Assembly (NCBI GenBank): GCA_902571005.1
Contig: CACGAG010000001.1
Coordinates: forward strand, 104,449 to 168,448
Source: an uncultured Pelagibacteraceae bacterium
Lineage (GTDB): Bacteria; Pseudomonadota; Alphaproteobacteria; Pelagibacterales; AG-422-B15
Reading direction: 5' to 3'
DNA length: 64,000 nucleotides
In this document: one piece after another, positions 5,089-56,290 of the stretch
Layout: each line of letters starts with the position of its first letter
Position numbering within the stretch: position 1 is the stretch's first letter
Position numbers and translations under genes: made by a program
Notes under the pieces: generated by a model
Seen by the model: the letters and a program-made list of their open reading frames with translations, nothing else
Told to the model about the DNA's origin: nothing
The model's database searches: none

Positions 5089-5180
5089 CCGTCAGAAATA
5101 TTATTTCTGCGGTGCCATAAATAAAGGTATCGACACCAGTCAGCGAGTTTCGCCCATTGGTGCATTACCTGCTGAAGGAG
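5089..5180 (+). ncRNA. Structured leader RNA of ffh (candidate ffh motif)
   Basis: Two stem-loops fill the ffh 5' leader. Hairpin 1 pairs CCG-CAGAAAT (5089-5099, one bulged T) with ATTTCTG-CGG (5103-5112) across a 3-base loop. Hairpin 2 pairs GGTA (5126-5129) with TACC (5166-5169), CACCA (5134-5138) with TGGTG (5158-5162), and GCGA (5143-5146) with TCGC (5150-5153). The segment is richer in G+C than its surroundings and ends at the AAGGAG ribosome site. A conserved cis-regulatory ffh motif was reported from Pelagibacter and marine metagenomes; membership is inferred from position and character, not from an alignment. It does not show the conserved SRP RNA apical loop (GGAAGCAGC type). Confidence 0.6.
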
Positions 5181-7591: not shown

Positions 7592-8308
7592 ATGTATCGA
7601 GTAAAAATTATCACACTTTTTCCAAATAGTTTTCCTGGACTTTTAAATACAGGAGTCGTGGGTAAGGCATTAAAGAAAAAAATATGGTCATTAAAAACAA
7701 TTGATCCGAGAAAATATTCAAAAGGTAATTACAAAAAAGTAGATGACACCACAGCTGGTGGCGGTCCTGGTATGATTTTAAAAGCAGATATAATCGGGAA
7801 GTCTATTGATGCTTGTTACAAGAATATAAAATCTAAAGATAGTTATCCAATGATATATTTAAGTCCTCGCGGTACTCCTTTAACTCAAAGTAAAGTTATT
7901 AATTTTTCAATGATGAAAGGAATTAATATTCTCTGTGGTAGATATGAAGGCATTGATCAACGTATACTTGATTTCTATCCTATTGAGGAAATAAGTATTG
8001 GAGATTATATACTAGCGGGTGGTGAAATAGCTTCCCAGGTTTTAGTGGAATCAATAGTGAGACTGTTGCCAGGAACACTTGGTGACATGAAGTCTGCTAG
8101 TTCAGAGACCTTCTCAAAAGACCTTCTTGAATACCCTCAGTATACAAGGCCTAAAAAATGGAAAAATTTGACAATTCCAGACATATTGCTCTCTGGGAAT
8201 CACAGAAATATTAGTGAGTGGCGCATAAAACAATCTGAAAAACTGACCCAGAAAGTTAGGCCAGATTTATGGAAAAACTACAAAAAAAGCAAGACAAGGA
8301 AGAAATAA
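7592..8308 (+). CDS. trmD: tRNA (guanine-37-N1)-methyltransferase TrmD
   Basis: SPOUT-class SAM-dependent methyltransferase that makes m1G37 and prevents +1 frameshifting. Knot motifs are intact: TAGGGPGM, LSPRGTPL, CGRYEGIDQR, IGDYILAGGE and the C-terminal dimer segment with SGNHRNISEWR. Length is 238 aa. It starts two bases after the rimM stop. Confidence 0.96.
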   Translation: MYRVKIITLFPNSFPGLLNTGVVGKALKKKIWSLKTIDPRKYSKGNYKKVDDTTAGGGPGMILKADIIGKSIDACYKNIKSKDSYPMIYLSPRGTPLTQSKVINFSMMKGINILCGRYEGIDQRILDFYPIEEISIGDYILAGGEIASQVLVESIVRLLPGTLGDMKSASSETFSKDLLEYPQYTRPKKWKNLTIPDILLSGNHRNISEWRIKQSEKLTQKVRPDLWKNYKKSKTRKK

Positions 8309-15118: not shown

Positions 15119-15496
15119 ATGAGCAGTCCCTTATCACCACATTTGCAAGTTTATAGATGGCAAATTACATCGATACTATCAATTCTTCATAGAATAACGG
15201 GTATAGTTTCATCATTAGGTGTAATCATATTAATAATATTTTTATATTCAATTAGCGCTGGTGAAGAAACTTTCCAATTTATAATTTCCTTATCAGAAAA
15301 TATTTTTATAAGAGCAATATTAATAGGTCTTACGTTTTCATATTTGTTTTATTTTTTAAACTGCTTAAGGCACTTATTCTGGGACGTTGGTATTGGGCTC
15401 GAATTAAATACTGCCAAATTGACAGGTTGGATTACTATTTTGTTTACTGTTTTGCTCACTGTTCTATTTTGGGTTTTAATTATGATTGGATATTAA
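15119..15496 (+). CDS. sdhC: Succinate dehydrogenase cytochrome b556 subunit
   Basis: Membrane anchor subunit of complex II that binds heme b and quinone. It is 125 aa with SPHLQVYRWQ at the N-terminus, SILHRITG in helix 1, the likely axial heme ligand His85 in NCLRHLFWD, and three membrane helices (about 22-44, 62-84, 103-124). No clear Shine-Dalgarno precedes the ATG. It follows the lyase-hydratase fusion by 48 bases and precedes sdhD by three. Confidence 0.94.
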   Translation: MSSPLSPHLQVYRWQITSILSILHRITGIVSSLGVIILIIFLYSISAGEETFQFIISLSENIFIRAILIGLTFSYLFYFLNCLRHLFWDVGIGLELNTAKLTGWITILFTVLLTVLFWVLIMIGY

Positions 15497-15833: not shown

Positions 15834-17609
15834 ATGAATTACGAAATTGAATATCACGATTACGATGTAGTTGTTGTTGGTGCTGGTGGATCTGGTTTGA
15901 GAGCGACAGTAGGTGCTGTTGAGAATGGTTACAAGACTGCTTGTATTTCAAAAGTATTCCCAACCAGAAGTCATACGGTTGCAGCACAGGGAGGCATCTC
16001 TGCTGCACTTGGAAATATGGGTGATGATGATTGGAGATGGCACATGTATGATACCGTGAAAGGCTCTGATTGGCTCGGGGATCAGGATGCAATTGAGTAT
16101 TTGTGCAAAAATGCACCAAAAGCTGTTTTAGAATTAGAGAACTATGGAGTTCCATTTAGTCGAACAGAGGACGGAAAAATTTATCAAAGAGCCTTTGGAG
16201 GGATGACCAAAAATTATGGTGAAGGTACTGCACAAAGAACATGTGCTGCTGCTGATCGAACTGGCCATGCAATAATTCATACTTTATACGGGCAATCATT
16301 AAAACACGACGTTGACTATTATATTGAATATTTTGTTTTGGACTTATTAATGGTTGAGGGTGAATGCAGGGGTGTTGTTGCATGGTGTTTAGAGGACGGT
16401 AAATTACATGTATTTAATTCTAAACAAACAATACTAGCATCTGGTGGATATGGCCGTGTTTATTTTTCTGCAACTTCAGCTCACACCTGCACAGGCGATG
16501 GTAACGCTATGGTTTTAAGAGCTGGCCTACCTTTACAAGATATGGAATTTGTTCAATTTCATCCAACAGGTATTTATGGCGTTGGTTGTCTTATAACAGA
16601 GGGCGCAAGAGGAGAAGGCGGTTATTTAGTAAACAGTGAAGGTGAACGTTTCATGGAGAGATACGCACCATCAGCGAAAGACTTAGCTTCAAGAGATGTT
16701 GTGTCTCGTTCTATAACAAAAGAAATTTTAGAGGGTAGAGGCGTTGGCAAAGATAAGGATCATGCTTATCTTCATCTTGATCACATAGACTCAGATATAT
16801 TGGAAGAAAGATTGCCTGGTATTTCAGAGTCCGCAAAAGTTTTCGCAGGAGTTGATGTTACTAAAGAGCCAATTCCAATTATACCTACAGTTCATTATAA
16901 TATGGGTGGAATTCCAACAAATTTTCATGGAGAGGTAATGAACCTCGAAAAGGGAAATGAAACAGTCGTACAGGGTTTGATGGCAGTTGGTGAAGCTGCT
17001 TGTGTGAGTGTTCATGGTGCAAATAGACTCGGATCAAATTCCCTAATTGATTTAGTGGTTTTTGGCAAAGCAGCAGCAGATAGAATAAATGACACGGTAA
17101 ATAAAGATGAGCCCAATAAGGAAATTCCAAGCCATGTAATCGATGAAGTCATTGCAAGGTTTGATAGTACACGATCTTCTGATGGGGATATTTCAACTTC
17201 AGAATTAAGGTCTCAAATGCAGAGAGTTATGCAGAAACACTGCGCTGTTTTTAGAGATGATGAGATTATGTCTGAAGGAAAAAAACTCATCGAAGAAACT
17301 TGGTTAAACTCAGAAAATATTAAAATTAAAGACAAATCACTTATATGGAATACTGATTTGTTAGAAACACTTGAATATAAAAACCTAATTTCACAAGCTG
17401 TAGTTACAATGAACTCCGCACTAAATAGAAAAGAAAGTAGAGGGGCTCACGCTCGAGAAGACTATAAGGAAAGAGATGATAAAAATTGGATGAAGCATAC
17501 AATGTCATGGCTGAACGATAAGAGTTGTGAATTGGATTATAGATCAGTTCACGAATACACATTATCAAACGAAGTTAAATATATTGCGCCAAAGGCCAGA
17601 GTTTATTAA
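15834..17609 (+). CDS. sdhA: Succinate dehydrogenase flavoprotein subunit
   Basis: Oxidises succinate to fumarate with covalent FAD. The 591-aa protein has the dinucleotide fold [11 protein letters not shown], the flavinylated His47 in SHTVAAQGG, the HPTGIYG and GARGEGG loops, NMGGIPTN, and the conserved tail with REDYKERDD and HTMSW. The stop codon shares one base with the sdhB start (TAATG). Confidence 0.98.
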
Positions 17610-18385
17610 TGGTTCAGTTTAATCTTCCCGACAATTCTAAATTAACAGACGGTGATTATTACAAGTCTGAAAAAAGCAATGGGAATACTAAAAAATTCAA
17701 AATCTACCGTTGGTCTCCCGACGATGAGAAAAACCCAAGGATGGACACTTATGAAGTTGATCTAGACGATTGTGGTCCGATGGTATTGGACGCAGTTATG
17801 AAAATCAAAAGTGAAATTGATACTTCATTAACCTTTAGACGATCATGTCGCGAGGGCATATGTGGTTCTTGTGCAATGAATATTGATGGGACAAATACAC
17901 TCGCTTGTACCAAAGCAATTAGTGATGTGAAAGGTGACATAAAAATTTATCCTCTGCCTCACATGCCAGTTATAAAAGACTTAGTTACAAATTTAAAAAC
18001 ACTCTATAAGCAATTAAAGTCCATCAAGCCATGGCTTATGAATAAGAAACAAAACGCAAACGATACTGAAAATATTCAATCAAGAAATGACCGTGAAAAA
18101 TTAGATGGCTTGTATGAATGTATCTTGTGTGCATGTTGCTCAACTTCATGCCCAAGTTATTGGTGGAACAGTGACAAATATTTGGGCCCTGCAGTCCTGC
18201 TTCAGTCATATCGCTGGTTACAGGATAGCCGTGATGAGGAAAGAAAAGAGAGATTAAAAGAATTAGATGATACGTTTAAAGTTTATAGATGCCATACAAT
18301 AATGAACTGCACTCAAGCTTGTCCAAAAGGTCTCAACCCCGCAAAGGCTATTGCTGGTATCAAACAAATGATTGCACAGCAGTAA
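17609..18385 (+). CDS. sdhB: Succinate dehydrogenase iron-sulfur subunit
   Basis: Electron relay between SdhA and the quinone site. Cluster ligands are visible: [2Fe-2S] in CREGICGSC with a later Cys in LACTKA; [4Fe-4S] in [12 protein letters not shown]; [3Fe-4S] in [14 protein letters not shown]. Length is 258 aa. The last codons overlap a 15-base perfect palindrome (18381-18395). It ends the sdhCDAB operon, and an unusually long gap follows. Confidence 0.98.
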
Positions 18386-18455
18386 TTAAATTACTGTAAA
18401 ATCAAATATTATACTTACCAGCAGAACTGAAATAATAATTGTAACTACGATAAAA

Positions 18456-18563
18456 TAATTAACCACTATAAATCTCAATGGCGGGCAGTTGATTAGGGGA
18501 TTTTATGAAAATATTACATACCCACCATTGAGTCATACATATAAGTGTAAAACTTTCTAATTA
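18456..18563. ncRNA. Candidate structured element in the sdhB-smr gap
   Basis: The gap 18386-18600 holds a nested inverted repeat. CTCAATGG (18474-18481) pairs exactly with CCATTGAG (18525-18532), GGG (18483-18485) with CCC (18521-18523), and ATTTT (18500-18504) with AAAAT (18508-18512) inside the loop. Outside it, CACTATA (18464-18470) can pair with TATAaGTG (18540-18547), and TAATTA pairs with itself at 18456-18461 and 18558-18563. The result is a rod about 108 bases long with internal loops. No T-run follows on either strand, so it is not a classic terminator. The RNA family and strand are unknown; a 6S-like rod is one untested possibility. Confidence 0.4.
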
Positions 18564-18600
18564 AACTCTAATAAGTTTGCCAAAATGACAGAGCTTGATT

Positions 18601-18834
18601 TCAATATTTCCTCTGGATTTTGACAACAAAACTGCCTTCATGCCAACTCTGTTCAATGTACTGTATTTGGTGACTGCTTTCTGCCCAATGAGGAAATTCT
18701 TTTCTGATTTGCCCACTTTTACCTGTTATGATCTCTACTTTGGGTATACTTCCTTGGTAAGCTTCGTAAATAAAGTCAGTGAATTCTTGATAAGCATCCT
18801 CAAGTGTAAATCCATGAAGGTCAAGTTTTCTCAT
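18601..18834 (-). CDS. Stand-alone Smr-domain protein
   Basis: A 77-aa protein that is essentially one Smr (small MutS-related) domain: LDLHG at residues 4-8, the amphipathic helix, KVEIITGKSG (family TGxG position) and a C-terminal strand GSFVVKIQRK. Such domains bind or nick nucleic acid, but this minimal version has no partner domain. The ATG at 18834 is preferred over an in-frame TTG at 18843. It is divergent from the SDR gene with 50 bases between starts and convergent with sdhB. Confidence 0.75.
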   Translation of the reverse strand: MRKLDLHGFTLEDAYQEFTDFIYEAYQGSIPKVEIITGKSGQIRKEFPHWAESSHQIQYIEQSWHEGSFVVKIQRKY

Positions 18835-18884
18835 AATTTTCAAACATTGCCATTAGTTGTATTTAATCTAGAATATTTCATTAT

Positions 18885-56160: not shown

Positions 56161-56197
56161 CAAAAAAAAACCGCCCAACAACTAAGTTTGGCGGTTT
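56161..56197 (-). terminator. Rho-independent terminator in the metX leader
   Basis: On the minus strand AACCGCC (56190-56196 complement) pairs with GGCGGTT (56169-56175 complement), with a further AAC/GTT pair inside, followed by a run of T residues reaching 56162. It lies between the SAM-II aptamer and the metX ATG, so it can end transcription when the aptamer is in its SAM-bound form. Confidence 0.85.
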
Positions 56198-56202
56198 CAA
56201 CT

Positions 56203-56255
56203 ACCTCTTTAGCTGCATTTTTATTGCGCCCGCAAGCTGTGCTCAAATCGGCGCA
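56203..56255 (-). ncRNA. SAM-II riboswitch aptamer of metX
   Basis: The minus-strand sequence fits the SAM-II consensus: TGCGCC (56250-56255) followed by GATTTGA, the CTTGC segment, the closing GGCGCA, then the AATAAAAATG stretch and the 3' pseudoknot strand GCTAAAGAGG (56204-56213). SAM-II typically precedes metX/metA in alphaproteobacteria, and marine metagenomic forms are known. High SAM should lower metX-metW expression. Confidence 0.9.
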
Positions 56256-56263
56256 ATTCATGT

Positions 56264-56290
56264 ATTATATATTCAATAGGATATTGTCAA
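56264..56290 (-). promoter_or_regulatory. Predicted promoter of metX
   Basis: On the minus strand TTGACA (56285-56290) and TATAAT (56264-56269) are both perfect, spaced 15 bases (shorter than the usual 16-18). Initiation near 56257 would begin the transcript right at the aptamer. Confidence 0.65.

Follow-up and report, generated by a model that had tools for sequence, protein, structure and literature searches.

The stretch of DNA analysed here, the window, comprises 64,000 nucleotides from an uncultured Pelagibacteraceae bacterium and contains a gap of 215 bases between two convergent genes. On one side lies sdhB on the plus strand (17609–18385; NF004616, 367 bits against a cut-off of 228), and on the other, on the minus strand, a gene for an Smr-domain protein (18601–18843; PF01713, 45.2 bits against a cut-off of 25.7). 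An earlier reading of the letters without database searches (the sequence-only reading) had singled out this gap for its length and as the only non-overlapping convergent junction of the window. Both observations hold: sdhB ends at 18385 and the Smr-domain ORF at 18601, and the other six of the seven convergent junctions, counted by reading the window's mechanical ORF lists, overlap by 4–15 bases. Read on the minus strand from the Smr gene, which lies upstream on the same strand and is the constant neighbour of the element described here, the gap holds a 13-bp partly palindromic box (TGTCATTTTGGCA, 18578–18590), a −10-like element, TATATG (18538–18543), a stem (18474–18532) that encloses a 31-nt loop, and a small ORF (18386–18466) whose stop abuts that of sdhB. 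The gap does not look non-coding, given this conserved 26-codon ORF; sdhB, the convergent neighbour, lies outside the element.

Using the Smr protein as an anchor, we obtained matches in 80 of 97 genomes, drawn from the window's family and, weakly, from a sister family. Of the 53 genomes in the window's family, 41 gave a gap sequence: in 39 of them sdhB is adjacent, and in G044 and G046 the hairpin remains beside the Smr gene and sdhB is more than 3 kb away. These loci belong to 'Pelagibacteraceae bacterium AG-422-B15' and similar single-cell or metagenome-assembled genomes. The 12 family genomes without a gap reading are G017, whose contigs end at the locus, and 11 without an SdhB match. Neither an Smr nor an SdhB match was found in G001, G002, G010, G013, G021, G028, G029, G030, G032, G035 and G047; these 11 genomes may represent a subclade without the locus or a shared assembly gap, and one of them, G032, is 94% complete. 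A model of the element, R2, finds it once per genome in 37 of the 53 family genomes (E 0.1) and misses it in four genomes of genus g2 (G043, G049, G051 and G052) in which direct reading finds it. No credible copy was found by R2 in 104 sister-family genomes, its single match (G066, E 0.07) having been dropped because it overlaps a tRNA-Lys gene. Nor was a counterpart gap seen in the four of eight sister-family loci that lay in a readable orientation, where the next same-strand gene directly follows sdhB; in L106, the sole one tested, that gene encodes methylmalonate-semialdehyde dehydrogenase.

Hairpin structure and strand

Nested inverted repeats had suggested a long rod to the sequence-only reading. 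Its stem, CTCAATGG-C-GGG / CCC-A-CCATTGAG at 18474–18532, is present as described, and is the part of the gap that is conserved between lineages; the rod is not borne out by folding of the whole gap, which gives z −0.31 as a plus-strand RNA (71 of 200 shuffles as good) and z −1.79, modestly better than shuffles, as a minus-strand RNA (11 of 200 as good). On the minus strand the 5′ arm (CUCAAUGGUGGGUA, 18519–18532) and the 3′ arm (UGCCCGCCAUUGAG, 18474–18487) form 14 continuous pairs, G–U allowed. The position first taken for a mismatch is a G–U pair on this strand; read on the plus strand, the stem is interrupted by C–A pairs, the counterparts of minus-strand G–U pairs. The loop (18488–18518) contains CCCC at 18496–18499, a motif present at this loop position in 41 of 41 sequences (39 distinct gaps plus two). 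A T-run is absent after the stem on either strand, as had been noted, and no intrinsic terminator for the minus-strand element was seen by eye.

A stem of 10–17 pairs occurs in 38 of the 39 distinct sequences; for the remaining one, L069, the script chose a different, shorter pairing. When stem length was compared with shuffles one sequence at a time, between 0 and 115 of 200 shuffles were as good (17 sequences), a test that is weak for AT-rich sequences, and the case for structure is therefore carried by covariation. The sequence-only reading had proposed to look for covariation in an alignment of relatives, and there the pairing is indeed kept while the stem letters differ between lineages. 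The alignment used, A5, consists of 26 distinct sequences realigned to model R1 (built from the 13 sequences of A2), a fitting that leans toward the model; the stems are also visible without it. In A5, the outer helix is 98.6% paired, and 9 of its 11 pairs have changes on both sides. Covariation over the whole structure amounts to 0.440, the shuffled mean being 0.172, and none of 500 shuffles comes as high; 1 of 500 reached the observed value for pairs changed on both sides, and 4 of 500 did so for further pair types. Displacing the partner by 1–3 columns lowers pairing from 90% to 21–57%. The outer helix, with compensatory changes beyond both the shuffled and the slid controls, behaves as a conserved structured RNA. 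A separate alignment, A1 (MAFFT, 28 sequences), puts the arms out of register, and L064, L067, L069, L070 and L071, which were searched and lie above the E cut-off used, are outside the covariation count.

The direction of transcription can be sought in the wobble pairs, as an A–C cell on the minus strand would be G–U on the plus strand. Read on the minus strand, the outer helix has 15 G–U cells, no A–C cells and four other unpaired cells, the G–U cells stemming from at least L030, L023, L062, L063, L065 and the window clade. The inner helix gives 1 G–U against 19 A–C cells on the minus strand, mostly in columns common to the window clade, and would favour the plus strand; it has changes on both sides in two of seven pairs and is not supported. 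We do not rely on it, because its pairing reaches just 75% and its strand signal is opposite.

No Rfam family attains its gathering score, whether in the gap itself or in any of six relatives. A 6S-like rod, one idea of the sequence-only reading, accordingly finds no match: a relaxed scan of the gap, with 6S sought up to E 10, gave two matches far under their gathering scores, neither of them 6S. Two other long gaps of the window do have Rfam matches, an ffh RNA motif (5119–5170, plus strand) and an alphaproteobacterial SAM riboswitch (56188–56264, minus strand).

Promoter block, nitrogen box and candidate regulator

Upstream of the stem on the minus strand, a TGTCANNNTGGCA-like box, a putative nitrogen-regulator site, stands at the same place in 41 of 41 gaps; it is exact in genera g1, g3 and g4 and carries one- to three-letter variants in most of g2. 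A TATA, searched 25–50 bp from the box, follows it in 40 of 41 sequences. The distance is 34 bp in all g1 (as for TATATG in the window) and g3 sequences, 33 in g4 and 41–44 in four g2 sequences, among them L067, where the TATA at 44 was taken and a second one lies at 32. G046 (g2) has only TAGTAA, at 40 bp from the box.

The exact box has 33 matches in six family genomes, against three for a reversed control pattern; in six sister-family genomes there are five matches against three, and the matches lie in open frames. All 33 family sites were inspected. The 26 intergenic ones stand before the hairpin (5), amt (7), glnB (6), urtA (1), a CP-ATPgrasp gene (3), rpoH (3) and one other, and two of the three rpoH sites, at contig ends with identical flanks, may be one site. 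Gene names come from family searches of representatives, further copies being named by eye from similar sequence; the marine ammonium transporter, UrtA, sigma-32 and CP_ATPgrasp_2 (circularly permuted ATP-grasp) exceeded their cut-offs, and P-II and GlnII are best matches under theirs. The gene-linked boxes inspected, including those of glnB and amt, run in the same orientation, TGTCA to TGGCA toward the gene, and the hairpin box shares the orientation of the boxes before amt, glnB, urtA, the CP-ATPgrasp gene and rpoH. The element carries the same operator-like box as nitrogen genes, which aligns it with an NtrX regulon as regards the shared site, as distinct from binding, and the box outlines a putative small nitrogen regulon for the window's family.

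Several box copies deserve mention in their own right. Four of the seven coding sites are one site in sdhC: in the window the exact box lies inside the sdhC coding sequence at 15412–15424 (G000:C1:119860-119872), as it does in a total of four g1 genomes, and this copy may merely reflect the conserved protein stretch TAKLTG. The box before rpoH (sigma-32) occurs in a g2 and a g4 genome, one each (L148, L174), where it would tie the heat-shock sigma factor to nitrogen control. G019 has two nitrogen boxes 31 bp apart before an amt gene (L176), and in G000 (L270), G040 (L251) and G045 (L254) glnB, glnII and glnA stand in a row behind one nitrogen box.

NtrX is the likely regulator of the element, because ntrY–ntrX is present, the box is that of nitrogen genes and no sigma-54 exceeds the cut-off. 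The window genome has ntrY–ntrX–trkA (trkA recognized by eye), NtrX being a best NCBIfam match only, at 521 bits under a cut-off of 600. This genome, 91% complete, yields two HTH_8 matches, one of them RegA-like; the other, NtrX, is the only one of the two that is a full-length regulator of the NtrC type. Among the 53 family genomes no sigma-54 match exceeded the cut-off, and the three weak matches (E about 4e-4) lie inside long frames. A point against NtrX is the form of the box, the core of which is at best CAA-N-TTG, and CATTTTG in the window; the NtrX sites described in PMC9223101 are CAAN2-5TTG and GCAN9TGC.

An Hfq-dependent sRNA would call for Hfq in the genome, and the search for it gave no match in any of the 53 family genomes (0/53); the same search was positive in 5 of 14 control genomes, including E. 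coli and Caulobacter. In alphaproteobacteria hfq often sits in the hflX neighbourhood, between aminotransferase-like and hflX-like genes. At L179 the gap between two such genes, recognized by eye (7974–8046), lacks hfq.

The small ORF and candidate targets

The ORF at 18386–18466 starts with GTG and encodes a hydrophobic peptide of 26 residues (VVNYFIVVTIIISVLLVSIIFDFTVI). Similar ORFs of 20–26 codons lie at the same place, between the stem and the sdhB stop, in four genera. Judged by reading the gap sequences, a clear ORF is present in 24 of 41 genomes: 13 from the window clade, G018, G026, G009, G005, three of g2, one of g3 and three of g4. In G046 it is plausible if TTG serves as its start, in G052 it has no start codon, and 15 genomes (14 of one subclade, and G019) lack it. 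Its pN/pS values in five groups, 0.39, 0.09, 0, 0.30 and 0.20, the smaller groups having few differences, indicate that it is under purifying selection. The nine peptides examined are hydrophobic, with 19-residue hydropathy maxima of 2.05–2.84, except for the short G046 version among them, which reaches 1.28. The window-clade ORFs, with their GTG start, have no clear Shine–Dalgarno site, and five peptides compared with Pfam matched no families. We rejected as a gene a mini-ORF (AGGGGNNNNNATGAAA...) that most of genus g1 carries in the loop on the plus strand: its C-terminus changes, and there is no such ATG in g4, g2 and G019.

Where the ORF is missing, the hairpin persists. Among 13 distinct sequences of the ORF-less subclade, the loop is invariant at 36 of 37 positions, versus 1 of 20 just downstream; L026 of the same subclade, with a loop insertion and one changed letter, was left out of this count. 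The RNA itself therefore seems to matter, and the hairpin appears to be selected independently of the peptide.

The window loop AUCCCCUAAU offers a candidate partner, with 10 bases fully complementary to the glnA ribosome-binding site AUUAGGGGAU (glnA type I, over its family cut-off). At −19.2 kcal/mol, glnA ranks first of 437 start regions, drawn from ~31% of the genome and from three nitrogen loci. The margin over shuffled loops is small, their best matches having a mean of −17.3 and a minimum of −21.4; the observed top-ten mean is reached by 1 of 20 shuffled loops. In G045 (g4) a changed loop and a changed glnA leader again match over 10 bases; the 10-base match within the own genome is found in L270 (G000), L251 (G040) and L254 (G045). 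Elsewhere the match spans 7 bases in G048 and G050, 6–8 in four genomes of the ORF-less subclade, 5 in G019 and 4–7 in three g2 genomes, and a comparison of own with swapped loops across 10 lineage types gives P 0.075 for energy and 0.16 for length. We regard glnA as a weak candidate target, a lead and not a result. The second-best loop match in the window genome is a 230-aa ORF with an AAGGGGA leader (L249, 13599–14288, minus strand; G000:C3), which reads like proteorhodopsin by eye and has no NCBIfam match.

A putative nitrogen-stress RNA and its known counterparts

The element is on the minus strand, and it resembles neither an sdhCDAB 3′ UTR nor a 6S RNA. The idea of a small RNA gene, also raised by the sequence-only reading, fares better, as covariation of the stem extends across genera and a conserved promoter-like block of its own precedes it. 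We consider that the gap probably contains a self-contained minus-strand gene for a nitrogen-regulated small transcript, most plausibly under NtrX, that combines a regulatory hairpin with a membrane peptide. The sequences themselves show conserved pairing, an outer stem that prefers the minus strand, a promoter geometry that hardly varies, a box in common with nitrogen genes and selection on the peptide; we infer transcription, control by NtrX, induction by nitrogen shortage, base-pairing and the place and role of the peptide in the membrane. A nitrogen-responsive activator, most likely NtrX, would bind the box and drive transcription from the −10 element, the transcript starting near the foot of the stem at about 18531. 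The hairpin would expose its C-rich loop, and the RNA would then, in most lineages, code for a membrane peptide some 26 residues long. Most likely the hairpin would pair, without Hfq, with G-rich ribosome-binding sites; it should have a job of its own, because it is kept where the peptide is lost.

The strongest competitor is a plain small mRNA, in which the hairpin is a cis-acting 5′ leader that controls the stability or translation of the membrane peptide and has no role in trans. It accommodates the position of the hairpin, which in each of the four genera with the ORF comes just before its start, as well as the purifying selection on the ORF; against it stands the conservation of stem and loop in the ORF-less subclade of 14 genomes, and we regard it as unlikely. 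In a further reading, improbable in our judgement, the element would belong to the plus strand and form a hairpin with a GGGG(A) loop at the 3′ end of the sdhCDAB mRNA, where it would perhaps serve as a protein site or, as the sequence-only reading had it, as a stability element. The inner helix, if real, would favour it by 19 cells to 1, and the plus-strand loop is AGGGGA in many members, yet the outer helix is biased 15 to 0 toward the minus strand, the conserved block (box and TATA) extends upstream on that strand and not toward sdhB, and the hairpin is apart from sdhB in G044 and G046. A DNA-level inverted repeat or terminator without specific RNA function would suit the convergent position and the near-universal stem, and is very improbable given the missing T-run, the near-fixed promoter geometry, the coding selection on the adjacent ORF and the fact that stem letters change whereas those of the loop stay fixed within clades, contrary to what a protein that recognizes the arms by sequence would leave behind.

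The preferred reading, a regulated minus-strand hairpin with a peptide, admits a bolder version, which we offer tentatively and hold to be somewhat doubtful: a dual-function RNA of nitrogen stress in streamlined SAR11 relatives, driven by sigma-70 and NtrX and independent of Hfq, whose CCCC loop pairs with start regions such as that of glnA and whose 26-residue peptide acts in the membrane. One subclade would have shed the peptide and kept a pure sRNA, a dual-function RNA caught splitting. This natural loss of the peptide separates the role of the RNA from that of the peptide. SAR11-type cells have few transcription regulators and have been hypothesized to rely on non-transcriptional control (PMC13198564). 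The conserved hairpin with its nitrogen box and micro-protein would be a concrete, testable regulator of that kind, and if the reading is true, stripped-down ocean cells related to SAR11 may possess a nitrogen-stress regulator that has stayed hidden.

Among the open-licence papers found by literature searches, titles and the opening lines of abstracts mention neither the element itself nor an NtrX-controlled small RNA. NsiR4 of cyanobacteria reportedly answers to a different regulator than the one proposed here and carries no peptide. Its likeness is that of a small RNA in the control of nitrogen assimilation (PMC5069720). GlnZ of Enterobacteriaceae is likewise a small RNA linked to nitrogen limitation and the TCA cycle; it is freed by RNase E from the glnA 3′ UTR and depends on Hfq, whereas the element has a separate putative promoter and a peptide ORF (PMC9731577). 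Structured RNAs of Pelagibacter ubique resemble it as conserved hairpins in small intergenic regions of a SAR11 bacterium; that text does not mention sdh or succinate, and R2 has no credible copy in the 104 sister-family genomes (PMC2704228). The NtrYX regulons of other alphaproteobacteria share the regulator family and palindromic CA-Nx-TG sites, but the TGTCA-N3-TGGCA box differs in spacing and flanks from the NtrX sites described there (PMC9223101, PMC7240162). The closest working analogue, compared by plan and not by sequence, is VcdRP of Vibrio cholerae, a short RNA that combines a 29-aa protein with a base-pairing part that requires four consecutive cytosines, and that controls central metabolism (PMC8672173). 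VcdR requires Hfq, and its gene is repressed by CRP, whereas here no Hfq was found and the box is of nitrogen type; VcdR pairs through a site in its 3′ part, whereas here CCCC lies in the loop of a 5′ hairpin and the peptide is hydrophobic (PMC8672173). What the two appear to share, a short RNA with a small protein, here a 26-aa ORF, and a four-cytosine stretch, here the CCCC loop, is a likeness of plan and not membership (PMC8672173).
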